DNA from: an uncultured bacterium
GTDB lineage: Bacteria > Bacillota_I > Bacilli_A > RF39 > UBA660
Reading direction: 5' to 3'
Assembly: GCA_947169285.1 (NCBI GenBank)
Contig: CAMVPB010000007.1
Span: forward strand, 1 to 48,581
DNA: 48,581 nt
The position numbers were made by a program, and so were the translations under genes. Below, in pieces: positions 1,732 through 29,189 of this stretch (positions are counted from its first letter, which is position 1; each line of letters opens with the position of its first letter). Under the pieces are notes generated by a model that was given only the letters and a program-made list of their open reading frames with translations, had not been told where the DNA came from and made no database searches.

Positions 1732-1760
1732 AAAAACTAAAAAGTCACTTTTTAGTTTTT
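1732..1760 (-). terminator. Terminator of the spoVA operon
   Basis: A perfect 13-bp inverted repeat (AAAAACTAAAAAG / CTTTTTAGTTTTT) with a 3-nt loop. It is flanked by A and T runs and contains the spoVAE stop codon, so it ends the spoVA transcript ahead of scpA. Confidence 0.8.
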
Positions 1761-2102
1761 AGATTTAAATATAAGTGCTACTATAAATGAGATAATTATA
1801 GTTGCAGATAATCCTGCAGAAGCGTTTACTAAAAGTCCTTTTAAAAGCCCAATAAATCCTTCTGAATAATATCCTTGTAAAGCTCCATTTACTAAAAGAT
1901 TACCAAAGTTTGTAATTGGAACAGTTGCTCCGGCTCCTGCACATAATATAAATTTATCATAAAGACCACAGCCCGAAAATATACAACCAATAACAACTAA
2001 AATTGTATTTAAATGTCCGGGTGTTAATTTTGTCTCTTCTAATATTATCTGTCCTATTAAACAGACTAGTCCGCAAAATATAAAAGCATTTACATATATC
2101 AT
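1752..2102 (-). CDS. spoVAE: Stage V sporulation protein AE, dipicolinate channel subunit
   Basis: SpoVA proteins form the inner forespore membrane channel that imports Ca-dipicolinic acid during sporulation and releases it at germination. This 116-residue protein has about four membrane segments and family signatures such as FCGLVCLIGQIIL, TPGH and GAGATVPITNFGN, which it shares in part with its paralogue SpoVAC. Its start ATG overlaps the spoVAD stop by 4 bases (ATGA), so translation is coupled. It is the last gene of the operon; its stop lies inside the terminator hairpin. Only the AC, AD and AE genes are present here, the reduced set also known from clostridia. Confidence 0.93.
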   Translation of the reverse strand: MIYVNAFIFCGLVCLIGQIILEETKLTPGHLNTILVVIGCIFSGCGLYDKFILCAGAGATVPITNFGNLLVNGALQGYYSEGFIGLLKGLLVNASAGLSATIIISFIVALIFKSKN

Positions 2103-3076
2103 TTTATTACCTCCAAACTAACAGCATGACTTACTCCAACCATTGGTTTTTTTAAATTTGTACTCATGCAAGAATGAAGAGATCCGCTTCCTAACACTAA
2201 TATTTTTTTATATTTTTTAATAATTTTTGTAAATAAGATTAATGGCACACATATAGGACCAGAACCGCCAGCAAAGTCTGAATCTTTATTTACGTTATAA
2301 AGCATAACACCAGCATCCACTATTCTATTAGATTTTAGTTTATATTTTCTATTTAAATATTCTTTTAAATATTCAATACCATATATTCCTAAATCTCCAG
2401 TTAGTATTACATCATAATAGTTTATATCTCTACCTGTACTTTTTAAATGATCATATAGAGTTTCAGCTACTGCCGGAGCCATACAAGCACCCATATCATT
2501 TGTATCAGTGTGTCCCATATCAATCACTTTTCCGATATTAGCACTTTCTATCATAATATTACTTTTTTTATTACTTATAATTGCAGATACTGCACCAGAA
2601 GCGCTAAATGAATTCACTTTTTTTCTTAAAGCTCCATATTCAACAGGAAATCTAAATTGTTTTTCACTAACTAAATTATTTGAAGATGTGACAACCATTG
2701 CATTTCTACATTTGTTTTTTCCTATTAAAGAAGCACCAATTATAATTCCTTCTATAAAACTAGAACATGCACTAAACACCCCTAAAAAAGGCATTTCATA
2801 TTTACAAGCATTATAATTGGATGCAAATAATTGATTTTGAAGATCCCCGCCTATTAACAAGTCAATATCTTCAGGTTTTTTATTTTCTTTATCTAGTAAA
2901 CCTCTAGTAACCAATGTTTGATATTCAACTTCACCCTCTTCAAATGTTTTTTTATTTAAGAAATAATCTTCTATTGACATATCAACATCATTTAATATAG
3001 ATGGGTTGTTTGCTTTACTAGATAAAAGTGTAAAATGGTTGTTAATATACACATTATTAAATTTTATATTTTTCAT
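2099..3076 (-). CDS. spoVAD: Stage V sporulation protein AD
   Basis: SpoVAD is a soluble thiolase-fold protein that binds dipicolinic acid and docks on the SpoVA membrane subunits. The protein has 325 residues, close to the usual length of about 335. Visible family features are the segment GVFSACSSFIEGI at the position of the thiolase active-site Cys, the VTSSNN motif, and the C-terminal GSGPICVP and LVLGSGSLHSC segments. The start overlaps the spoVAC stop by 4 bases and the stop overlaps the spoVAE start by 4 bases, which indicates tight translational coupling and fixed stoichiometry in the forespore. Confidence 0.95.
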   Translation of the reverse strand: MKNIKFNNVYINNHFTLLSSKANNPSILNDVDMSIEDYFLNKKTFEEGEVEYQTLVTRGLLDKENKKPEDIDLLIGGDLQNQLFASNYNACKYEMPFLGVFSACSSFIEGIIIGASLIGKNKCRNAMVVTSSNNLVSEKQFRFPVEYGALRKKVNSFSASGAVSAIISNKKSNIMIESANIGKVIDMGHTDTNDMGACMAPAVAETLYDHLKSTGRDINYYDVILTGDLGIYGIEYLKEYLNRKYKLKSNRIVDAGVMLYNVNKDSDFAGGSGPICVPLILFTKIIKKYKKILVLGSGSLHSCMSTNLKKPMVGVSHAVSLEVIK

Positions 3077-3507
3077 CCGACTATCACCTTTATTAATGAA
3101 ATAAAGAAAGCGGCTACTATTCCATAAAGTATTATACTTCCTGTTAATTTAAAAATACCAGAACCTATTCCTTTAACTAACCCTTCATTTCTTGTATCCA
3201 TTGCAGCACTAGTCATTGCATGAGCAAAACCAGTAGTTGGAACAATTAAACCACATTTTGAAAATGATACTACTTTATCAAAAAAACCCAATCCAGTTAA
3301 AATAGAACCAATTAATACGAAAGATACCATTGTTAACATGTAAGAATCATTTATACTAAAATGTAAACATTTATTAAAAACATCTGTTAATAATTGACCA
3401 ATTACCCCACAAAGTCCACCCACAAAAAAAGAAATAATTATATTTTTTAATTTATTTTCTTTTGGACTTTTATATTTAATTATTTTTTTATATTCATTTT
3501 TATCCAA
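3073..3507 (-). CDS. spoVAC: Stage V sporulation protein AC, dipicolinate channel subunit
   Basis: SpoVAC is a membrane subunit of the dipicolinic acid channel, reported as mechanosensitive in Bacillus. The protein of about 144 residues has a short basic N-terminus, then about four membrane segments with the signatures FVGGLCGVIGQLLTD and VPTTGFAHAMTSAAMD. Start choice: a GTG at 3516 lies in the same frame but has no ribosome site. The TTG at 3507 follows AGGTGAG by 4 nt, so I take TTG. A sigma-G/F-type promoter at 3524-3553 puts transcription start at about 3517, leaving a leader of only about 10 nt. It is the first gene of spoVAC-AD-AE. Confidence 0.9.
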   Translation of the reverse strand: MDKNEYKKIIKYKSPKENKLKNIIISFFVGGLCGVIGQLLTDVFNKCLHFSINDSYMLTMVSFVLIGSILTGLGFFDKVVSFSKCGLIVPTTGFAHAMTSAAMDTRNEGLVKGIGSGIFKLTGSIILYGIVAAFFISLIKVIVG

Positions 3508-3523
3508 ATATCTCACCTATTTT

Positions 3524-3557: not shown

Positions 3558-3588
3558 AAAAGTGAAATTATCTAACCATTTCACTTTT
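3558..3588 (-). terminator. Terminator of spoIIAA-sigF
   Basis: A perfect 11-bp stem (AAAAGTGAAAT / ATTTCACTTTT, loop 9) followed by Us on the minus strand. The sigF stop codon lies inside the stem. It separates the sigF unit from spoVAC. Confidence 0.8.
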
Positions 3589-4224
3589 CATTCTTGATAA
3601 TATTTTATTCTCTTTACGAGATACTTGTACTTGAGTCATTCCCATTAATGATGCTGTTTCACTTTGAGTAAAATCTTGATAATATCTATAATTTATAAGT
3701 TCCCTATCATCTACACTTAAATTATTAATTACATTTTTCAAATCAATTTTAGAGTCAATATCTTCACTATGATCTTCACCTATTACATCATGTAAATACA
3801 AATCATCTTTAATTTCTTGATCAATGCTCATTATTTCGCTATTATTGTTAATAGCATTATATAAATCATATTCGCTTATTTCCATAAATTCAGATATTTC
3901 TTTTAAAGTGGGATTATATCCTTTTGTAGAAGTTAAATAATCTCTTGCTTTTTCATAAAGTTTATATATTTTAGAATTATCCCCATGCATTTTAAGAAGT
4001 TTATCATTTCTTAAATAATTGGTTATTTCTCCAAGAATATAATTATAAGCATATGTAGAAAATTTGGTATTATAGTCATCTTTATAATTTTTATATGCAT
4101 TAATTATTCCAATACACCCAACTTGAAATAAATCATCTATATTAGCATGCCCACTATATGAATGAGCTATTTTATAAATTAGATTTTTATTTTCTTCTAT
4201 TAATTTCCAAATATCTTTTTTCAT
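3568..4224 (-). CDS. sigF: RNA polymerase sigma factor, sigma-F/G type (probable sigma-F)
   Basis: A sigma-70-family factor of the sporulation F/G group, which drives early forespore transcription. Region 2 shows DDLFQVGCIGIINAYKNY and KFSTYAYNYILGEI (about residues 30-68). Region 3 follows, and region 4 has the helix-turn-helix TQSETASLMGMTQVQVSRKENKIL near the C-terminus, nearly as in Bacillus SigF. It has 218 residues against about 255 in Bacillus; the missing part is N-terminal, before region 2. It overlaps spoIIAA by 4 bases (ATGA), so the anti-sigma gene spoIIAB that normally lies between them is absent. Position next to spoIIAA and spoVA argues for sigma-F; sigma-G cannot be excluded from sequence alone. 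Confidence 0.88.
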   Translation of the reverse strand: MKKDIWKLIEENKNLIYKIAHSYSGHANIDDLFQVGCIGIINAYKNYKDDYNTKFSTYAYNYILGEITNYLRNDKLLKMHGDNSKIYKLYEKARDYLTSTKGYNPTLKEISEFMEISEYDLYNAINNNSEIMSIDQEIKDDLYLHDVIGEDHSEDIDSKIDLKNVINNLSVDDRELINYRYYQDFTQSETASLMGMTQVQVSRKENKILSRMKSEMVR

Positions 4225-4562
4225 AATTCAAATACTCCTAATGCCATCCTTTCATTTTTAACTTTATATAAGATTTTATCTATTAATGTTCCTTTTATTT
4301 TCTTTTCTATTTTCTTGCTATCAATTAGCGTAGTTTTACCATTAAATTTCAAAACCGCATCATTTATTTGATCAATCACTTCTATTCCATAATTATCAAG
4401 TACATTTACTCCATTAAGGTTTAAAACTACATACTTAAATCCGTTTTTTAGTATTAATGGAATAATTTCTTTTTTTAGTTTATAAGAATTAGTTTTATCA
4501 AGTGAACCACTAATTCTTATAAAAAGTACTCCTTTCTTATATTCTATATTTGTTTCAAACAT
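4221..4562 (-). CDS. spoIIAA: STAS-domain protein, SpoIIAA-like anti-anti-sigma factor with altered phosphosite
   Basis: A single STAS domain of 113 residues, the size of SpoIIAA, which in Bacillus frees sigma-F from the kinase SpoIIAB. Typical features are FIRISGSLD near residue 20, the strand YVVLNLNGVNVLD, and the C-terminal ALGVFEL, which resembles the end of Bacillus SpoIIAA. The motif that carries the phosphorylated serine, D-S-S/T-G, here reads D56-N57-Y58-G59, so the acceptor is lost. The gene overlaps sigF directly and no spoIIAB is present in the window. The AGGTG ribosome site supports the ATG at 4562. Identity as SpoIIAA rests on position and fold; a divergent STAS protein with another role remains possible. 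Confidence 0.78.
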   Translation of the reverse strand: MFETNIEYKKGVLFIRISGSLDKTNSYKLKKEIIPLILKNGFKYVVLNLNGVNVLDNYGIEVIDQINDAVLKFNGKTTLIDSKKIEKKIKGTLIDKILYKVKNERMALGVFEL

Positions 4563-4603: not shown

Positions 4604-4632
4604 TTTATACACATTCGACAAAATTAGAACAA
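4604..4632 (-). promoter_or_regulatory. Candidate vegetative-type promoter of spoIIAA-sigF
   Basis: TTGTTC (4632-4627) and TATAAA (4609-4604) are 17 nt apart on the minus strand, 42 nt before the spoIIAA start. A GTCGAAT overlapping this spacer resembles a sigma-H -10, but no sigma-H -35 (AGGA-type) is seen at the right distance. Confidence 0.35.
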
Positions 4633-4637
4633 TAAAG

Positions 4638-5777
4638 TTATCGACATCTTTTTATCAATTCTCTTAAGAATAAACATAAAAATACAATTAATGATAAAAA
4701 TAAAGCAATTATTACATAAAATTTAAGGTTATTTTTATTAGTTGTTTCTTTATTTTTATTTGTTTTATTTTCAACAATTTCTTTTTTTGTTACATATTCA
4801 CAAGGTTTAGTTTCTTCTTTTTGAGAACTTACTTCTTTTTCAAGAGTAATATATTTATTCACTATTTTTTCTTTAGGAACAATTATTTCTTTAAAAACAT
4901 CTTTTTCAATTATTTCAGGTTCTACTACTACATTTTCATAATCATATTCTTTTATGAATTGTTTTTCATCTTTAATATAATTTTCAACTAAATCAAAATA
5001 TCCATCCAAATATTCTTTTTCACTACACATTAAATAAGCATCTTTATACCTATAATATTTAATAATATTATTTGATGACCAACTTTTATAAGAATTAATA
5101 TAACTTGCATAATATTGTGCGCCTATTTTAATTAGAGAAGTATCATTTTCTTCTTTTGATTCAAGAACATTAAAATTTCTATCTAACTTTGAAATTCTAT
5201 AGCCAAATAAATAATCTTCTTTATCATAAATAAATTGAACTCTTATATTTTCGTCTGTTTCTTCATTTAAAATTAATGTTATAGGTTGTCTATGTTTTAT
5301 TTCAAAATAAGTATTGTAATTATTATCAAAAAGATTTTCTCTGGGAAATGTTGAAGTACAATTATAACATACTACAGAATTATACTTTACTTGTTTTCCA
5401 TTATCATCAAAAAGTTTTATTTCTTTTGTTCTTAAATTTGAAGTAAGTATATTATCAATTTTTATAGCAAAATATGTTGGATTTTCACTTGTCGTTTCTT
5501 CTTTTTCTTCTATTATTCTTCCATACTTTTCTTCTGGCTTTTCAGTACTCCAATTACTAAAATCAGTTTCTTTTAATTCTAAATGCTCGCAAATATGTTC
5601 AAAAACATTTTCTTTTCTACCATCCACTTTTTTTAATTTATACCATTTATATTTTTCACTAACACCATTAATTTTAATATTTTCATTTAATGGCAAACCA
5701 TTAGTGTTAATAGCTTTAATTCTTTTAAATGGAATAAATAAAAAAGTAAATAATATAAATATTATTACTTTTCTCAT
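4638..5777 (-). CDS. Secreted, C-terminally membrane-anchored protein with possible discoidin-like domain
   Basis: I do not recognise a named family. The 379-residue protein has an N-terminal signal peptide (about 1-22, ending near IKA), a long extracytoplasmic region, a charged Lys/Glu-rich stalk (about 285-350), then one hydrophobic segment (about 353-371) and a basic tail. The pattern ENLFDNNYNTYFEI near 147-160, with the strands before and after it, resembles the ligand face of F5/8-type-C (discoidin) domains. That is inference from pattern only. A CxxC lies just before it (VVCYNCTS). It has its own GAGGAGGT ribosome site and sits between the glycosyltransferase and spoIIAA, so a role in the sporulating-cell envelope is plausible but unproven. 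Confidence 0.7.
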   Translation of the reverse strand: MRKVIIFILFTFLFIPFKRIKAINTNGLPLNENIKINGVSEKYKWYKLKKVDGRKENVFEHICEHLELKETDFSNWSTEKPEEKYGRIIEEKEETTSENPTYFAIKIDNILTSNLRTKEIKLFDDNGKQVKYNSVVCYNCTSTFPRENLFDNNYNTYFEIKHRQPITLILNEETDENIRVQFIYDKEDYLFGYRISKLDRNFNVLESKEENDTSLIKIGAQYYASYINSYKSWSSNNIIKYYRYKDAYLMCSEKEYLDGYFDLVENYIKDEKQFIKEYDYENVVVEPEIIEKDVFKEIIVPKEKIVNKYITLEKEVSSQKEETKPCEYVTKKEIVENKTNKNKETTNKNNLKFYVIIALFLSLIVFLCLFLRELIKRCR

Positions 5778-6986: not shown

Positions 6987-7367
6987 TTAGTTTGTTTCAT
7001 CTCCACCTGTTGGACCAGTTGGACCTTGTGGAATTGTTAAATTAAGAACAAAGTTAGGAGCTGTACCTGTTATAGTAGCAGAAGCTTCAGTTCCAGGATC
7101 TCCTGTTGTTACAGTACCTATTGTAATAGTTGGAGTTTCACCATCTTCACCCGCTGGACCTGTTGGACCTGTTGGGCCAATTTCTCCTTGTGGACCTGTA
7201 GGGCCAATCTCTCCTTGTGGACCAGTAGGGCCAATTTCTCCTCCTGATGGGCCTGTTGGACCAGTAGGTCCAATTATACCAACAAAATATGGTATTCTTG
7301 CATTAAGAATTCTATTAAGTGCTCTTTGTTCAGCACAATTATTTCTACAATTACAATTATTTATCAT
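6987..7367 (-). CDS. Collagen-like GPT-repeat protein (probable spore-surface protein)
   Basis: This protein of about 126 residues has three parts. First comes a Cys/Asn-rich head (C5, C7 and C11). Next, from about residue 30, there are some 16 Gly-x-y triplets dominated by GPT, GPQ and GEI, with one extra Gly breaking the register after GPS. Then comes a Thr/Val-rich beta segment ([19 protein letters not shown] and following) that is common in bacterial collagen-like proteins, and a short GPTGPT tail. Bacillus BclA-type exosporium fibres have such repeats, but the large C-terminal trimerising domain of BclA is missing. Start: a GTG at 7373 is part of the ribosome site GAGGTG, so ATG 7367 is preferred. 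It lies between dacF and a glycosyltransferase gene. Confidence 0.88.
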
Positions 7368-7478
7368 AATCACCTCTATTTTAATTTATGAAATTAAAAA
7401 TAAAGATTATATGCATTCTAACTAAATATAAACAAAATTCCACTTATTACATAGTCATAAATATTAATTTATTACTTT

Positions 7479-8648
7479 CTATATTACATTAACTTTACCA
7501 CTAATTATATCTTTAAAATTATTATATAACATTTTAAAATATCCTGACTTTTTTATATTTTCTTTTACTACTAAATTATATTCATAAATTTTACCATTAT
7601 AATTTAAATATATTTTTCCTATTACATCTCCTTTTTTTAAAGGGGCTTTTATATTATTAAATTCTTTTTTTAAATCATATTTTATTTCTTCTGTATTTTT
7701 ATCTACTAAAACATTTATATCTTCACTCGCATAATACTTTATATTTCTAGGATTTGCATTATTAACATATATTTCTCCTAATGACTTATCAGATTTTAAT
7801 ATGTTTTTTATACCATAAACACTAAATCCATATTCCATCATAGCAATTGTATCTTCATTTCTATCTTCTTTTTCATTAGCTCCCATTACTACGCTTATAA
7901 GTCTCATATCATTTTTTTTCATTGTTCCTGTTAAACAATACTTTGCTTTATCTGTAAACCCTGTTTTAAGTCCATCCATTCCATTATAAAATCTTACTAA
8001 TTTATTTGTATTAACTAGCCAATGATTTTGACCATTTACATTTATATTTTCTTCATATGTACTTGTAATTTTTAATATACTCTCATGTTTTATAAGTTCA
8101 CTTGCAATTAAAGACATATCATAAGCAGTTGAATAATGTCCTTCTTCATCTAAACCATGTGGATTTTTAAAACTAGTATCAACTGCGCCTAATTCTTTTG
8201 CTCTTTTATTCATCATTATTACAAAGTTGTCATAAGTTCCACCTACTTTTTCAGCAAGAGCAACTGCTGCATCATTAGCAGAAGCTATTCCAATTCCTTT
8301 TAACAAATCTATTACTTTTACATTGGTTCCCTCTTTAATGAATATTTGTGTACCTCCCATACCAGAAGCTCTTTTGCTTATAAGAACAGCATCATCGTAT
8401 GAAAGTTTTCCAGAATCAATTGCTTCCATTGTAAGAAGTAATGTCATGATTTTAGTCATTGATGCTGGCGCTAATTTCTCATGAGAATTTTTTTCATAAA
8501 GAATAGTCTTAGTTGATGGTTCAATTAATATTGCAGACTTACTATTTTTAGCATATTCTCCTAATTCTTTATCAACCGCAACTCCATCCGCGTTAACTAT
8601 ACTTATAAATAAAAACAAACTAATTAAAAACATTGTTATTTTTTTCAT
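7479..8648 (-). CDS. dacF: D-alanyl-D-alanine carboxypeptidase, SxxK (DacF-type)
   Basis: A serine DD-carboxypeptidase that trims the terminal D-Ala of peptidoglycan stem peptides and so limits cross-linking. It has a signal peptide (about 1-20), the catalytic SMTK motif (within LAPASMTKIMTL), the SAN triad (GIASANDAAV) and KTG (GLKTGFTDKA). A C-terminal beta domain (PBP5_C-like) starts at about residue 280, and an amphipathic tail follows. About 389 residues is the usual length. I choose the ATG at 8648 with AGGGTG upstream rather than the GTG two codons earlier. In Bacillus dacF lies just before spoIIAA; here three genes separate them, so the ancestral order is partly kept and dacF is the likely identity. 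Confidence 0.88.
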   Translation of the reverse strand: MKKITMFLISLFLFISIVNADGVAVDKELGEYAKNSKSAILIEPSTKTILYEKNSHEKLAPASMTKIMTLLLTMEAIDSGKLSYDDAVLISKRASGMGGTQIFIKEGTNVKVIDLLKGIGIASANDAAVALAEKVGGTYDNFVIMMNKRAKELGAVDTSFKNPHGLDEEGHYSTAYDMSLIASELIKHESILKITSTYEENINVNGQNHWLVNTNKLVRFYNGMDGLKTGFTDKAKYCLTGTMKKNDMRLISVVMGANEKEDRNEDTIAMMEYGFSVYGIKNILKSDKSLGEIYVNNANPRNIKYYASEDINVLVDKNTEEIKYDLKKEFNNIKAPLKKGDVIGKIYLNYNGKIYEYNLVVKENIKKSGYFKMLYNNFKDIISGKVNVI

Positions 8649-8761
8649 ATACACACCCTAAAAAATAATATGTATTATAATTTTATTTATTCTTTACACT
8701 TTTTATTTTCCTTTTAAGAATAAATAGTTTTATTCATGATATAATTAAACTAGGTGATAAT

Positions 8762-21066: not shown

Positions 21067-22236
21067 CTATTTCCTCCATACCATTTTATCAACAATAGAA
21101 GTATAACTTTGTATTATTTTAACTACCTTTGTACTAACATTATTTTCTATATAATCAGGAGTTGGTGTTCCATAATCTTTATTATTATTTAATTTTATTT
21201 CAGTTTCTACTGCTTGCAATAAACTATTTTCACTTATACCAGCTAAAGTAAAATCTCCTTTATCTATTGCTTCTTGTCTCTCAGTACTTGTTCTTATACT
21301 AACTGCCGGAAATGAACAACCTTTGTTTATATAAAAACTACTTTCTTCTGGTAATGTTCCAGAATCACTAATAACAACAAAAGCATTCATTTGAAGATTA
21401 TTATAATCAATAAATCCTAATGGTTCATGTTCAATTACTCTTTTATCTAATTTAAATTTTGTTTTTATTAATTTCTTTTTACTTCTAGGATGACATGAAT
21501 ATAATATTGGCATATCATATTTTTTAGCAAGTGAATTTATTGAATTAAATAATTCTTTAAAATTTTTATCATTATCTATGTTTTCTTCTCTATGAGCAGA
21601 TAAAAGAATATATTTTTTAGGTTCTAAATTCAATTTTGATAAAATCTTAGATTTTTTAATTTTATTAAAATTTTTATTTAAAACTTCATACATTGGAGAA
21701 GATGTAACAAACACTCTCTCTTTTGGAAGTCCACATTCATGTAAATATTTTCTTGCATTCTCTGAATAAGCCATATTTATATCAGAAATTATATCAACTA
21801 TTCTTCTATTTGTTTCTTCCGGTAAACATTCATCTTTACATCTATTACCCGCCTCCATATGAAAAATTGGAATATGAAGTCTTTTAGCACTAATTGCAGA
21901 CAAACAACTATTAGTGTCTCCTAATATTAATAATGCATCTGGTTTAATAGCATTCATTAATTTGTAAGATTCTGATATTACATTACCCAAAGTTTCTCCT
22001 AAACATTCACCAACTACTCTCATATAAATGTCAGGTTTTTTAACGCTTAAATCCTTAAAAAAAATATCAATTAAATTATAATCATAATTTTGTCCTGTGT
22101 GAGCAAGTATACAATCAAAATATTCTCTACACTTATTAATAATTGAACTAAGCCTTATTATTTCTGGTCTTGTTCCAACAATTATTAATAGTTTCAATTT
22201 ACCATTTTCTTTCCATTTTAATTTTTTATATTCCAT
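21067..22236 (-). CDS. capG: UDP-N-acetylglucosamine 2-epimerase family, CapG type
   Basis: The last enzyme of UDP-N-acetyl-L-fucosamine synthesis epimerises the C2 of UDP-2-acetamido-2,6-dideoxy-L-talose. The 389-residue protein has the epimerase-family motifs VGTRPEIIRLS, AHTGQNYDYNL, LGDTNSCLS, HMEAGNRC, LSAHREENID and DSGTLPEESS. The general family also contains WecB/MnaA, which make UDP-ManNAc. The immediate neighbours capE and capF make the CapG role far more likely. It starts right after the capF stop with GGAGG inside the capF end, so the two are translationally coupled. It is the last gene of the cassette. Confidence 0.88.
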   Translation of the reverse strand: MEYKKLKWKENGKLKLLIIVGTRPEIIRLSSIINKCREYFDCILAHTGQNYDYNLIDIFFKDLSVKKPDIYMRVVGECLGETLGNVISESYKLMNAIKPDALLILGDTNSCLSAISAKRLHIPIFHMEAGNRCKDECLPEETNRRIVDIISDINMAYSENARKYLHECGLPKERVFVTSSPMYEVLNKNFNKIKKSKILSKLNLEPKKYILLSAHREENIDNDKNFKELFNSINSLAKKYDMPILYSCHPRSKKKLIKTKFKLDKRVIEHEPLGFIDYNNLQMNAFVVISDSGTLPEESSFYINKGCSFPAVSIRTSTERQEAIDKGDFTLAGISENSLLQAVETEIKLNNNKDYGTPTPDYIENNVSTKVVKIIQSYTSIVDKMVWRK

Positions 22237-23340
22237 TTATTCCTCCATAATATATGTGTCGGGATTTTTTTTATCATATAATTCATTAGCCCAAATAATA
22301 AGAACTAATTCATCATTACCAATATTATTTATAATATGATTATATCCAGGTGGTATTGTTACATATTGAAGTTTATCAGAAGACACTTCAAATATATGTT
22401 TAGAATGATCAATAATATTTTCTAATTCTATTTTTGCTTTTCCTTTTACTACTATAAATCTTTCAATCTTAGTATGATGATAATGACCACCCCTAACTAC
22501 ATTAGGATATGTCGTTGAAAAAGAAATTTGACCGTTTTTAGTTGTCCTTACTAATTCGCAAAAGCATCCTCTATCATCTTTATGTTTCTCTAAATCTACA
22601 ATAATATCTTCATAAGGAATATAACTTATATATGTAGAATATAGTTTCTTTATAAAATCATTACCAGTTATAGGGACATATATGTTACTGTCTTTAAAAC
22701 TTTTTATTAATTTATAAATATAACCCAAAGTTTTTGTATAAGACTTAGGTATATAACAAAAGCCATCCTTCCTATGTTCTTTATTATTTAAACATTTAAG
22801 CAATTCTATACAAACATCATCTATATAACATAATGTTAATTTTCTTGATTTATCATCAATTTTTATTTCTAAACCATTAGCAATATTATAACACCAAGTA
22901 GCGATTACACTATTATAATTTGGTTTACACCACTTACCAAAAATATTATAAAATCTATAAATAAATATTTTTATATTATTATCTTTACCATATTTTAATA
23001 CTAGTTCTTCTTCCAATTTTTTTGATTTTCCATAATCATTATTGAGACTAGCTTGAATAGAAGAAGATATCATTATCGGACATTTATTATTATTACTTTT
23101 TAAAGTATCTAATAAAACTTTAGTAAAAGCAACATTATCTTTATGGTATTCACTAACATCTTTTGGTCTATTAGAACCTGCAAGATGATACACAAAATTG
23201 CAATCTTTTGTGTACTCATTTAAATCTTTCAAAGTAGAATTTCTATCATATTTATAAATTTCTATATCTTTATTTAAATTTAAAAAACCAATTAAATTTT
23301 TACCAACAAATCCATTTGAACCAGTTACTAATACTTTCAT
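22237..23340 (-). CDS. capF: CapF: bifunctional NAD-epimerase-fold reductase with C-terminal cupin
   Basis: CapF acts second in UDP-L-FucNAc synthesis: it epimerises C3 and reduces C4 of the 4-keto-6-deoxy sugar. The N-terminal domain is an extended SDR with the NAD(P) motif VTGSNGFVGKNLI (6-18) and a YxxxK-like segment (YGKSKKLEE). From about residue 245 a cupin domain follows, with DDRGCFCEL, RGGHYHHTKIERFIVVKGKAKIEL and PPGYNHIINN, which carry the metal-binding His residues. This two-domain layout is diagnostic for CapF/FnlB. The 367 residues match the family. Neighbours are the glycosyltransferase upstream and capG downstream. Confidence 0.92.
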   Translation of the reverse strand: MKVLVTGSNGFVGKNLIGFLNLNKDIEIYKYDRNSTLKDLNEYTKDCNFVYHLAGSNRPKDVSEYHKDNVAFTKVLLDTLKSNNNKCPIMISSSIQASLNNDYGKSKKLEEELVLKYGKDNNIKIFIYRFYNIFGKWCKPNYNSVIATWCYNIANGLEIKIDDKSRKLTLCYIDDVCIELLKCLNNKEHRKDGFCYIPKSYTKTLGYIYKLIKSFKDSNIYVPITGNDFIKKLYSTYISYIPYEDIIVDLEKHKDDRGCFCELVRTTKNGQISFSTTYPNVVRGGHYHHTKIERFIVVKGKAKIELENIIDHSKHIFEVSSDKLQYVTIPPGYNHIINNIGNDELVLIIWANELYDKKNPDTYIMEE

Positions 23341-23369
23341 AATTCACCTACTATAATAATTTTACCAAA

Positions 23370-24554
23370 TTATTTAACATCTTTTAATACTTCTTCTAAA
23401 GTATTTATACATTTATCTTTTTTGAAATTCTTTTCATAATAATTAAATGCATTCTTAGACCAAGTATTTATTTTTTTACTAATAGATGCCTCTAATATTA
23501 TTTTTGACAAGCCTTTATAATCTAGCGAATCAACACACAAACCACATTTAGCTTCTTCTATTATTTTTTTTACTTCACCTGAAATAGATCCTAATATTGG
23601 TTTACCTGCTAGCATATAAGATTGCAATTTAGCTGGTAGTGTACTATTAACAACTTCATTGTTTACCATTGTTATTAAAAATGCATCTGCAAGTTCATAA
23701 TACTTTGTCATTTCTTTTACATTATGATAGCCATAAAACTTTACATTCTTTAATTTGTATTTTTTTGATAATTCCTTACAATTATTAAGACTTAATCCAT
23801 CTCCAACTATATGAAACATAATACTCTTATTATTTTTTAATGTATTAGCAGTTTCTATTATAGTTTCTACACTTTGAGCAGGCCCTATATTGCCTGCAAA
23901 TAATAAATCAAATTTATTATTGTTTATAGTTTTTATATTCTTATAATTATCTTCTGCATAAGAAGGTAAATATAAAAACTTTTTATTTTTATCTAATTTT
24001 AATTCATTAATAAAATAATCTTTAAAAGGTCTGGAACTACAAGTTATTATATCTGCTTTATTATAAGCATTCTTACTCCATTTTGTTAATAATTTATATA
24101 TTAATGATTTTTTAGATACTCCACCAGTTGTAATACTTATTGGCCATTGATCTAATACATGAATGACTAATGGTTTTTTAGTTATTTTTTTTACCATAAT
24201 AGCTGGCCATGTCATAGTTATTGGTGACAATTGGTAAACATATATAACATCAAAATCTTTTTTCATAAATAATGATTTTATACTTCCTAATATTGCAAAT
24301 GACATATAGTTTATCATCATTTTTAATAAAGATTTACCTCTTCCAACTAAAGGACATCTAATTATTTTAACTCCATTAATAATTTGTTTTCTATTTTTAA
24401 AAAATTTATATTCTTTAAATATTTTACCTTTTGGATAATTAGGAAGTCCTGTTAAAACAGTTACATTATGTCCTTTTTTAGCTAGTTCAAAACAAATATC
24501 ATTTATTCTAAAATTTTCTGGATAAAAATGTTGACAAACTACTAATATTTTCAA
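23370..24554 (-). CDS. Family 4 glycosyltransferase (WbuB-like)
   Basis: The 394-residue protein has the GT-B fold of family 4. The N-terminal acceptor domain begins MKILVVCQHFYPENFRINDIC, with GHNVTVLTGLPNYPKG; the C-terminal donor domain has LFAGNIGPAQSVETII, FYGYHNVKEMTKYY and the sugar-nucleotide site PAKLQSYMLAGKPILGSISGE. Close in pattern are WbuB-type transferases, which use UDP-L-FucNAc and occur with capEFG (fnlABC) genes. Its place inside the cassette between capE and capF supports that donor. The acceptor is unknown: no flippase, polymerase or initiating transferase is in the window. Confidence 0.88.
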   Translation of the reverse strand: MKILVVCQHFYPENFRINDICFELAKKGHNVTVLTGLPNYPKGKIFKEYKFFKNRKQIINGVKIIRCPLVGRGKSLLKMMINYMSFAILGSIKSLFMKKDFDVIYVYQLSPITMTWPAIMVKKITKKPLVIHVLDQWPISITTGGVSKKSLIYKLLTKWSKNAYNKADIITCSSRPFKDYFINELKLDKNKKFLYLPSYAEDNYKNIKTINNNKFDLLFAGNIGPAQSVETIIETANTLKNNKSIMFHIVGDGLSLNNCKELSKKYKLKNVKFYGYHNVKEMTKYYELADAFLITMVNNEVVNSTLPAKLQSYMLAGKPILGSISGEVKKIIEEAKCGLCVDSLDYKGLSKIILEASISKKINTWSKNAFNYYEKNFKKDKCINTLEEVLKDVK

Positions 24555-24570
24555 TTAAAACATCTCCTAA

Positions 24571-25572
24571 TTATTTAAATAAATCTAATTTTTTTAATAA
24601 CTTTTTCATTCCTTCTTTATTAAGTCTCTCTGCATTATGAGAATTATAATCTTCTACTTCATTTAAATAATGATTTCCTTGTTCAACATATTTTTGATAA
24701 TTTAAATCTCTATTATCCGCAGGGATTCTATAATAATTACCTAAATCTATAGCATTTAACATTTCTTCTTTTGTTACTAATACTTCATATAACTTTTCCC
24801 CATGTCTAGTACCTATATAATTAATTGGGACATCGCTGTTTTTTAATTCAACTATTGATTCTGCTAAAGTTCCAATAGTTACTGCAGGAGATTTTCTTAC
24901 AAATAAATCTCCTTGTTTACCATATTCATATGCGTATAAAACTAAATCCACTGCTTCTTCAAGTAGCATCATAAATCTAGTCATATCAGGATTTGTTACA
25001 GTTAGTGGATTACCTTCTTCTATTTGTTTACAAAATAGTGGGATAACACTACCACGAGATGCCATTACATTCCCATATCTTGTTCTACAAATAATAGTTC
25101 CATCTTCTTTTATATTTCTTCCTTTAGCAACTGCAACTTTTTCCATCATTGCTTTACTCATGCCCATTGCATTTATTGGGTAAGCCGCTTTATCTGTACT
25201 TAAAACTATAACTTTTTTAACGTTATGTTTTATAGCAGAATCTAATACATTTTCTGTTCCTAATATATTTGTTTTTACTGCCTCTAATGGAAAAAATTCA
25301 CATGAAGGAACTTGTTTTAAAGCGGCCGCATGAAAAACATAATCCACTCCATCCATTGCATCATCTAAACTTCTATAATCTCTTACATCTCCTATATAAA
25401 ACTTTATCTTATCATTTTTATATTCTATTCTCATATCTTCTTGCTTTTTTTCATCTCTTGAAAATATTCTTATTTCTTTCAAATCTGTATCTAAAAATTT
25501 TTTTAATACTGCATTACCAAACGAACCAGTACCCCCAGTTATCAATAAACTTTTATTTTTAAATATACTCAT
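24571..25572 (-). CDS. capE: CapE: UDP-N-acetylglucosamine 4,6-dehydratase (5-inverting)
   Basis: CapE converts UDP-GlcNAc to the 4-keto-6-deoxy-L-arabino-hexulose, the first step to UDP-L-FucNAc. It is an extended SDR with LLITGGTGSFGNAVL near residue 10, IGDVRDYRSL and FHAAALKQVPSCE. In the catalytic position it has M-x3-K (VLSTDKAAYPINAMGMSKAMMEK) instead of Y-x3-K, a known trait of CapE/FlaA1 enzymes, together with RYGNVMASRGSVIP. About 333 residues is typical. A GTG at 25581 is in frame, but ATG 25572 after GGGTGG is the better start. It is the first gene of the cassette, divergent from the membrane protein at 25727. Confidence 0.93.
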   Translation of the reverse strand: MSIFKNKSLLITGGTGSFGNAVLKKFLDTDLKEIRIFSRDEKKQEDMRIEYKNDKIKFYIGDVRDYRSLDDAMDGVDYVFHAAALKQVPSCEFFPLEAVKTNILGTENVLDSAIKHNVKKVIVLSTDKAAYPINAMGMSKAMMEKVAVAKGRNIKEDGTIICRTRYGNVMASRGSVIPLFCKQIEEGNPLTVTNPDMTRFMMLLEEAVDLVLYAYEYGKQGDLFVRKSPAVTIGTLAESIVELKNSDVPINYIGTRHGEKLYEVLVTKEEMLNAIDLGNYYRIPADNRDLNYQKYVEQGNHYLNEVEDYNSHNAERLNKEGMKKLLKKLDLFK

Positions 25573-25726
25573 AAAACCCACCCATAAACTTATAAATATA
25601 TTCTAACACACATTAAGTTAATAAATAAATATTTTTTTCATAAAATAACTGTAAATAAATATTATTTAGTAATAGAATATTTTCTCTACTTATGGTATTA
25701 TATTTTTAGAAAGGAGTAATATTATT

Positions 25727-28572: not shown

Positions 28573-28600
28573 TTACCAAATTATTTATTTTTTATTTTAT
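28561..28600. terminator. Bidirectional terminator between mscL and sigH
   Basis: A perfect 12-bp stem (AAATAAATAATT / AATTATTTATTT, loop ACCA) at 28563-28590 with A and T runs on both sides. The stop codons of both convergent genes lie in its arms. Confidence 0.78.
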
Positions 28601-29189
28601 CTTTTAATTTATTTTTTATTCTAAACATCGTATTTTCAATAGACTTTTTATCTTTATTTGTTTTAGTAGCAATCTCATCATTAGAATAACCTTCAGCTTT
28701 TAATCTAAACACTTCATATTCAAAAGGAGCTAAAATCTTTTTTGAATCAATAAGTATCTCATCAATACTTTCTTTATCTAATAATTGTATACTAGGATCA
28801 GATGTCTCATCTTTTAATATTTCATTTATATTTACTTCTTCTTCATATAATTTATCTAAAGATATAGAATTATTTAATGATTGATGTTTCTTCTTACTAC
28901 CCATTCTTAAAGCCGATTTAATACTTGATTCAATACATAAAGCCACATATGTATAAAATAATACATCTTTTGTTGAGTCATATGTATCAATTGCTTTTGA
29001 TAAGCCAATTAATCCTTCTTGCACAAGATCTTTTTCTTCTAATCCAAAAGTTTCAGCTAACTTTAAATACTTATAAGCTATTTTATGAACTATACCAGTA
29101 TATTTTTTAACAAGTTCACTTCTTGCTTCTTCATTAGATTCAGATACTAAAAATAATAATTCATTGTCATTTATTTCACCATAATTCAT
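28581..29189 (-). CDS. sigH: RNA polymerase sigma factor, sigma-H type
   Basis: SigH (Spo0H) directs transition-state and early sporulation genes in Bacillota. The 202-residue protein has region 2 with GLEEKDLVQEGLIGLSKAIDTYD and FYTYVALCIESSIKSALR, then a short linker and region 4 with LKAEGYSNDEIATKTNKDKKSIENTMFRIKNKL, the helix-turn-helix for the -35 element. The order rlmB-sigH is that of Bacillus (yacO-yacP-sigH), which supports the name, although yacP is missing between them (gap 3 nt). Together with sigF it indicates a real sporulation cascade. Confidence 0.92.
   Translation of the reverse strand: MNYGEINDNELLFLVSESNEEARSELVKKYTGIVHKIAYKYLKLAETFGLEEKDLVQEGLIGLSKAIDTYDSTKDVLFYTYVALCIESSIKSALRMGSKKKHQSLNNSISLDKLYEEEVNINEILKDETSDPSIQLLDKESIDEILIDSKKILAPFEYEVFRLKAEGYSNDEIATKTNKDKKSIENTMFRIKNKLKDKIKNK

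Follow-up and report, generated by a model that had tools for sequence, protein, structure and literature searches.

The SpoIIAB/SpoIIE switch is the textbook account of how the spore programme starts in the smaller cell alone. To our knowledge it has been treated as universal in sporulation, and this kinase/phosphatase pair controls sigma-F in all other spore formers that we compared. The closest described system is the spoIIA operon of Bacillus and Clostridia (SpoIIAA, SpoIIAB and sigma-F, with SpoIIE). The locus described here resembles it in the gene order STAS-sigF-spoVA, in its predicted control through a Spo0A box and in the full downstream cascade. The family to which the locus belongs differs from that operon in the following: (i) SpoIIAB is absent; (ii) SpoIIE is absent; (iii) the phospho-serine of the STAS protein is not conserved; (iv) sigma-F is shortened; and (v) the STAS gene has been lost in some genera. 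RsbV-RsbW-SigB and other partner-switching modules also pair a STAS protein with a sigma factor of the SigB/F/G type, but the genome studied here encodes neither a GHKL anti-sigma kinase nor a PP2C phosphatase as a partner. The non-canonical STAS-only proteins SypA, RbaV and HmpV (PMC8256260) are similar in that they do not, or may not, act on an anti-sigma kinase; by contrast, they keep a cognate kinase, and none is encoded in this genome.

Field et al. 2024 (PMC10868615) already reported that spoIIAB and spoIIE are absent in RF39. The accessible part of that paper gives the RF39 gene set and does not describe the STAS gene, the loss of its phospho-site, STAS decay, the Spo0A-box pattern or a mechanism. 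Phospho-site erosion, STAS decay and the Spo0A-box pattern were also not found described in the open-licence papers searched. The original prediction had called the simpler way of setting forespore timing undescribed, which is partly right, the absence of the two genes having been stated before.

Gene content of the locus and identity of its products

The window, that is, the whole stretch of 48,581 nucleotides that was analysed, is one entire contig of a genome assembled into 16 contigs (981 kb, 90.7% complete). The features relevant here are as follows.

1752–2102, minus strand: SpoVAE (SpoVAEB; TIGR02839, 125 bits)
2099–3076, minus strand: SpoVAD (PF07451, 280 bits)
3073–3516, minus strand: SpoVAC (TIGR02838, 148 bits)
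3568–4224, minus strand: SigF-like sigma factor of 218 residues without most of region 1.2 (TIGR02885, 161 bits; NF004052, 163 bits; 1L0O_C; family alignment)
4221–4224, minus strand: 4-bp overlap of the STAS stop and the sigF start, TTATGA (TGA stop, ATG start), read from the sequence
4221–4562, minus strand: SpoIIAA-like STAS protein of 113 residues (Pfam STAS PF01740, 42.9 bits; TIGR02886, 37.4 bits; the closest solved structures are SpoIIAA)
4386–4397, minus strand: codons of D56-N57-Y58-G59, in place of the D-S-S-G phosphorylation loop, with N57 in the phospho-serine column (alignment to 1TH8, 1AUZ and B. tequilensis SpoIIAA)
4614–4620, minus strand: Spo0A box TGTCGAA, about 52–58 bp upstream of the STAS start, in a position class also seen in the family's operons
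4640–4646, minus strand: second Spo0A box, TGTCGAT (one mismatch), 26 bp from the first, read from the sequence
4638–5777, minus strand: secreted or single-pass membrane protein of 379 residues and no known family, neighbouring the operon (in 32 loci a homologue immediately precedes STAS or sigF)
7479–8654, minus strand: D-Ala-D-Ala carboxypeptidase, probably DacF (enzyme family from the profile match)
28581–29189, minus strand: SigH-like sigma factor (TIGR02859, 101 bits; NF006148, 104 bits; both under the cut-offs)

Along the minus strand, the membrane protein gene is followed by those of the STAS protein, the sigma factor, SpoVAC, SpoVAD and SpoVAE, and then by open reading frames (ORFs) that are ScpA/ScpB-like by sequence recognition alone. 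The synteny from sigF through spoVAC-spoVAD-spoVAE matches that of canonical sigF loci. The overlap leaves no space for spoIIAB between the STAS and sigF genes, and an identical 4-bp overlap occurs in 14 of 85 genera of the family. A spoIIA-type locus without spoIIAB, with overlapping STAS and sigF genes and the motif D56-N57-Y58-G59, had been predicted from the letters, and the sequence, the profile matches and the structure alignments all confirm it. Two further genes of the window have counterparts in this context: dacF is the gene ahead of spoIIAA in B. subtilis, and SigH is an input to spoIIA transcription in that species.

The best equivalog of the sigma factor is TIGR02885 SigF (161.4 bits, against 114–124 for SigG and 100 for SigB), at a score below the equivalog cut-off of 321.45. 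Its closest solved relative is 1L0O_C, the sigma-F crystallised with SpoIIAB. The STAS protein has a STAS fold, as judged from its PF01740 match and from the STAS part of a modelled relative (G016), which has a pLDDT of about 95, and scores below the TIGR02886 SpoIIAA equivalog cut-off (37.4 against 114.75 bits). The best solved relatives are the SpoIIAA structures 1TH8, 1AUZ and 1TID, whose D-S-S-G aligns with D56-N57-Y58-G59. SpoIIAA is also defined by its place beside spoIIAB and sigF; here sigF adjoins and spoIIAB is absent. That the pair comes from another regulator family, for example a SigB-like one, is hardly credible. The SigB, SigF and SigG families form one superfamily, and the scores of the locus under the equivalog cut-offs would allow such an origin; against it stand the SigF equivalog and 1L0O_C as best matches, the spoVAC-AD-AE genes downstream, the Spo0A box upstream and a separate full-length SigG in the same genome.

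About 35 N-terminal residues are indeed missing from the sigma factor relative to Bacillus SigF, as originally noted. The suggested tie of this truncation to the loss of SpoIIAB was rejected, because several clostridial SigF frames of 216–223 residues adjoin an intact spoIIAB. The SpoIIAB-binding surface of sigma-F was also checked for specific erosion; only four columns stood out, without marking any one region.

Loss of the kinase, the phosphatase and the phosphorylation site

The genome of the window encodes a single STAS protein. A profile search of this genome found no SpoIIAB, the sole match being a 607-residue hybrid histidine kinase, and no PP2C or SpoIIE. Spo0A (252-residue frame) and SpoIIR (190-residue frame) are present, and one cluster holds SpoIIGA, SigE and SigG, all intact.

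The search was extended to 117 genera of the window's family, whose order is probably the GTDB order RF39, as judged from the single, very genus-rich family that makes up the sampled order and from agreement with the gene pattern of Field et al. 2024. SpoIIAB was above the cut-off in none of the 117 genera, the best score being 49 bits against 141–186 for true SpoIIAB. Short HATPase frames in four genera (G028, G014, G069 and G031) were read as candidates for a hidden SpoIIAB and proved to be histidine-kinase pieces. The sporulation SpoIIE was likewise found in none of the 117 genera, and PP2C exceeded the cut-off in G099 only, where the 625-residue frame matches both PP2C and HATPase, that is to say, a PP2C-ATPase fusion. 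In that genus, a separate STAS frame lies near the fusion frame and away from sigF (L202, G099:C2:139500-145500), and none lies beside sigF. SpoIIAB was also absent from all 60 genomes drawn from the order, some overlapping the sample and some of new species, the sampled order consisting of the window's family only. In other families of the same class, SpoIIAB was above the cut-off in 58 of 296 genomes, mostly together with a SpoIIE-sized PP2C, and never in the window's family. The SpoIIAB-bearing families are several, small-genome ones among them. From these comparisons, the loss is specific to the window's family.

The phospho-site was read from alignment columns, with B. tequilensis SpoIIAA among the aligned sequences. 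Among 85 family STAS proteins beside sigF, the column holds Ser in 8 and Thr in 1; the others have E (13), N (11), K (10), L (9), I (8), M (7), Q (5), D (4) and further residues. By contrast, Ser is found in all 62 named control loci in which SpoIIAA and SpoIIAB stand side by side (Fisher p = 5e-33, with shared ancestry ignored). About half of the members of a 29-genus clade (e.g., L007, L009 and L018) carry D-[I/L/M]-K-G, the prevailing loop of that clade, a pattern more suggestive of a new constraint than of random drift. The residue is acidic in 17 of the 85. Because the replacements are so varied, no permanent mimic of the phosphorylated or unphosphorylated state fits all of them.

The partner switch is almost certainly gone from the family. 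A SpoIIAB and SpoIIE that are present and were missed through genome incompleteness or divergence would be a very improbable explanation: the genome of the window is 90.7% complete and leaves some room for it, but the profile that found nothing in the 117 genera or the 60 order genomes finds SpoIIAB in 58 genomes of sister families, and the phospho-serine has been lost too. The coordinated loss of kinase and target serine proposed from this one locus is thus borne out, with the phosphatase added, over 117 genera. The contrary combination, a spoIIAB gene elsewhere in the genome with relatives that keep D-S-S/T-G, was not found.

Retention and decay of the STAS protein

A profile search at E 1e-3 found STAS in 82 of the 117 genera; sigF is present in 102. 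Among 101 usable sigF loci, 67 encode a STAS protein with an intact D-x-x-G; in 19 the loop is broken, and in 15 no STAS gene precedes sigF. The 67 include G025, whose STAS gene lacks a standard start in ORF calling; the loop was read in all the others. The STAS protein is therefore decaying or lost in a third of genera. Fourteen of the 15 STAS-less sigF genera keep SpoIIR. These genera are scattered on the SigF tree, with 10 parsimony changes, at least 2 of them forced by starred branches; the tree is quick and poorly resolved (11 of 102 branches starred), so that it sets only bounds on how often STAS was lost. An obligate role as anti-sigma factor or activator fits poorly with such scattered absence and with the broken loops, although the protein may have been replaced each time.

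Where the protein is retained, its gene is tightly linked to sigF (83 of 85 within 70 bp, 32 overlapping). In the family alignment, D56 and G59 are invariant and R16, G19 and N48 strongly conserved, and two thirds of genera keep such a STAS protein. These two features argue for a continuing function and count against a remnant. At one locus, the gap between STAS and sigF is 1,478 bp and holds a SAM-synthetase-like ORF (L203, G001); at two others, a SigE-type sigma-like gene lies upstream of STAS, the sigE and spoIIA loci being joined (L168, G030; L151, G073).

A STAS protein that now regulates sigma-F directly, binding it in place of SpoIIAB and releasing it on a cue other than phosphorylation, would accord with the linkage, the conserved residues and the apparent constraint in the 29-genus clade, most of which has D-[hydrophobic]-K-G. 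It is nevertheless unlikely, given the 15 genera that have sigF and no adjoining STAS (14 of them with SpoIIR) and the 19 with a broken loop. When STAS and SigF of G016 were modelled as an in-frame read-through fusion, the parts folded confidently, but the overall pTM was 0.41 and no confident contact joined them, a weak negative in view of the flexibility of sigma factors. No known direct STAS-sigma complex was found in the open-licence papers searched. The original prediction had proposed both that the phosphorylation switch may be gone and that the STAS protein may act directly on the sigma factor; the first part stands, with kinase, phosphatase and serine gone, and the second found no support in the distribution of the gene or in the modelled interface.

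The same prediction had allowed for another partner. It is also rather unlikely that the STAS protein works with a new partner other than a GHKL kinase, such as the membrane protein often encoded upstream. Homologues of the 379-residue protein are encoded immediately ahead of STAS or sigF in 32 loci, two of them STAS-less (G054 and G104); they begin with a signal peptide-like stretch and have an ectodomain and a single C-terminal transmembrane helix. However, they are found in only about a third of loci, and the cytoplasmic tail amounts to a few residues. A Spo0A box lies between the membrane protein gene and STAS, and only 1 of 23 such genes has a box of its own; the membrane protein gene is therefore probably a separate transcription unit. 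The protein had no significant match in Pfam; its model, a low-confidence all-beta ectodomain with a C-terminal transmembrane helix (mean pLDDT 68), had no match in the PDB at E below 0.001, which gives the proposed partnership no help from fold. Members of this membrane protein family share a conserved Y/W-rich ectodomain (in the window and in L203, L004, L008, L021, L156 and L177, among others).

Spo0A boxes and compartment-specific sigma-F activity

In 85 of the family's 101 operons, with or without STAS, a perfect TGTCGAA is found in the 250 bp ahead of the first gene, an 81-fold excess over the background of the same loci. The boxes are nearly always in one orientation, most commonly about 28, 50 or 60 bp from the start, and in several genera a pair of perfect boxes is spaced by 26 bp. 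Spo0A presumably binds at these sites, as judged from their sequence and placement. The same kind of count gave a perfect box in 15 of 62 canonical spoIIA operons, a figure that start-codon choice and clade-specific box variants may lower. Perfect boxes are thus far commoner in the family than at canonical loci, as if transcriptional control had sharpened after the switch was lost.

The Spo0A domain was found in 108 of the 117 genera and SpoIIR in 101. SpoIIR and sigF are both present in 99 genera, both absent in 13 and discordant in 5 (Fisher p = 9e-13, uncorrected for phylogeny). In Bacillus, SpoIIR is the signal from the forespore that switches on sigma-E, and its co-occurrence with sigF suggests that compartment-specific sigma-F activity still matters.

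We cautiously favour, as somewhat probable, a control of sigma-F dominated by Spo0A-driven transcription, with the STAS protein accessory or a remnant and with no kinase/phosphatase release. The locus would be a canonical spoIIA-spoVA locus stripped of its partner-switching module. Spo0A~P, with sigma-H, would be the main trigger of sigma-F production with no release step, and the STAS protein would be a dispensable remnant or a minor modulator. SpoIIR-SpoIIGA signalling still presupposes forespore-restricted sigma-F. This restriction would come from cell-biased Spo0A~P and sigF transcription, gene dosage or sigma-F turnover instead of an anti-sigma kinase; a perfect Spo0A box does not by itself account for compartment specificity. 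A new, unrelated anti-sigma factor, of a kind that profile searches would miss, may instead exist, which counts against this reading. That an entire family which forms endospores, or runs the engulfment programme, has no anti-sigma factor on sigma-F, with transcription (the Spo0A box, gene position and protein turnover) alone setting cell-specific activity, is conceivable, though less likely than not; if it is true, the SpoIIAB/SpoIIE switch is dispensable.

Sporulation in the family is itself predicted, these organisms being known from assembled genomes. It appears improbable that the locus is a relic of a disappearing sporulation programme, with sigma-F control left unconstrained. Small genomes would fit a relic, as would the roughly 15 genera without sigF, nearly all of which also lack SpoIIR, and the sporulation probability of 0% that SpoMAG 2025 (PMC12536801) assigns to RF39. 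Against this, sigF persists in 102 of 117 genera, alongside Spo0A, SpoIIR and a Spo0A box at a set position; SigE, SigG and SpoIIGA are intact in the genome of the window; and Field et al. 2024 (PMC10868615) predict sporulation for RF39. In SpoMAG, spoIIAB is one of nine genes shared by every predicted spore former (PMC12536801), and the tool's reliance on spoIIAB-like markers may mis-score the entire order as non-sporulating.

Spore formers are recognised by spoIIAB, among other markers; at least 100 switch-less genera with sigma-F, Spo0A and SpoIIR either break the rule or hold a replacement. How sigma-F is activated in just one of the two cells in these small-genome gut bacteria, most genera of which appear to carry a worn STAS remnant, is a testable question. 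The family also provides a natural gradient, from a changed phospho-site through a broken loop to the loss of STAS, whose genes can be assayed one at a time in a laboratory Bacillus.

Two other regions of the window deserve mention. A small collagen-like (GPTGPTGP) protein encoded near the sporulation genes, at 6987–7373, may be a spore-surface protein, and a cluster of sugar-nucleotide epimerase, dehydratase and glycosyltransferase-like ORFs at 21067–25581 probably serves surface polysaccharide synthesis.
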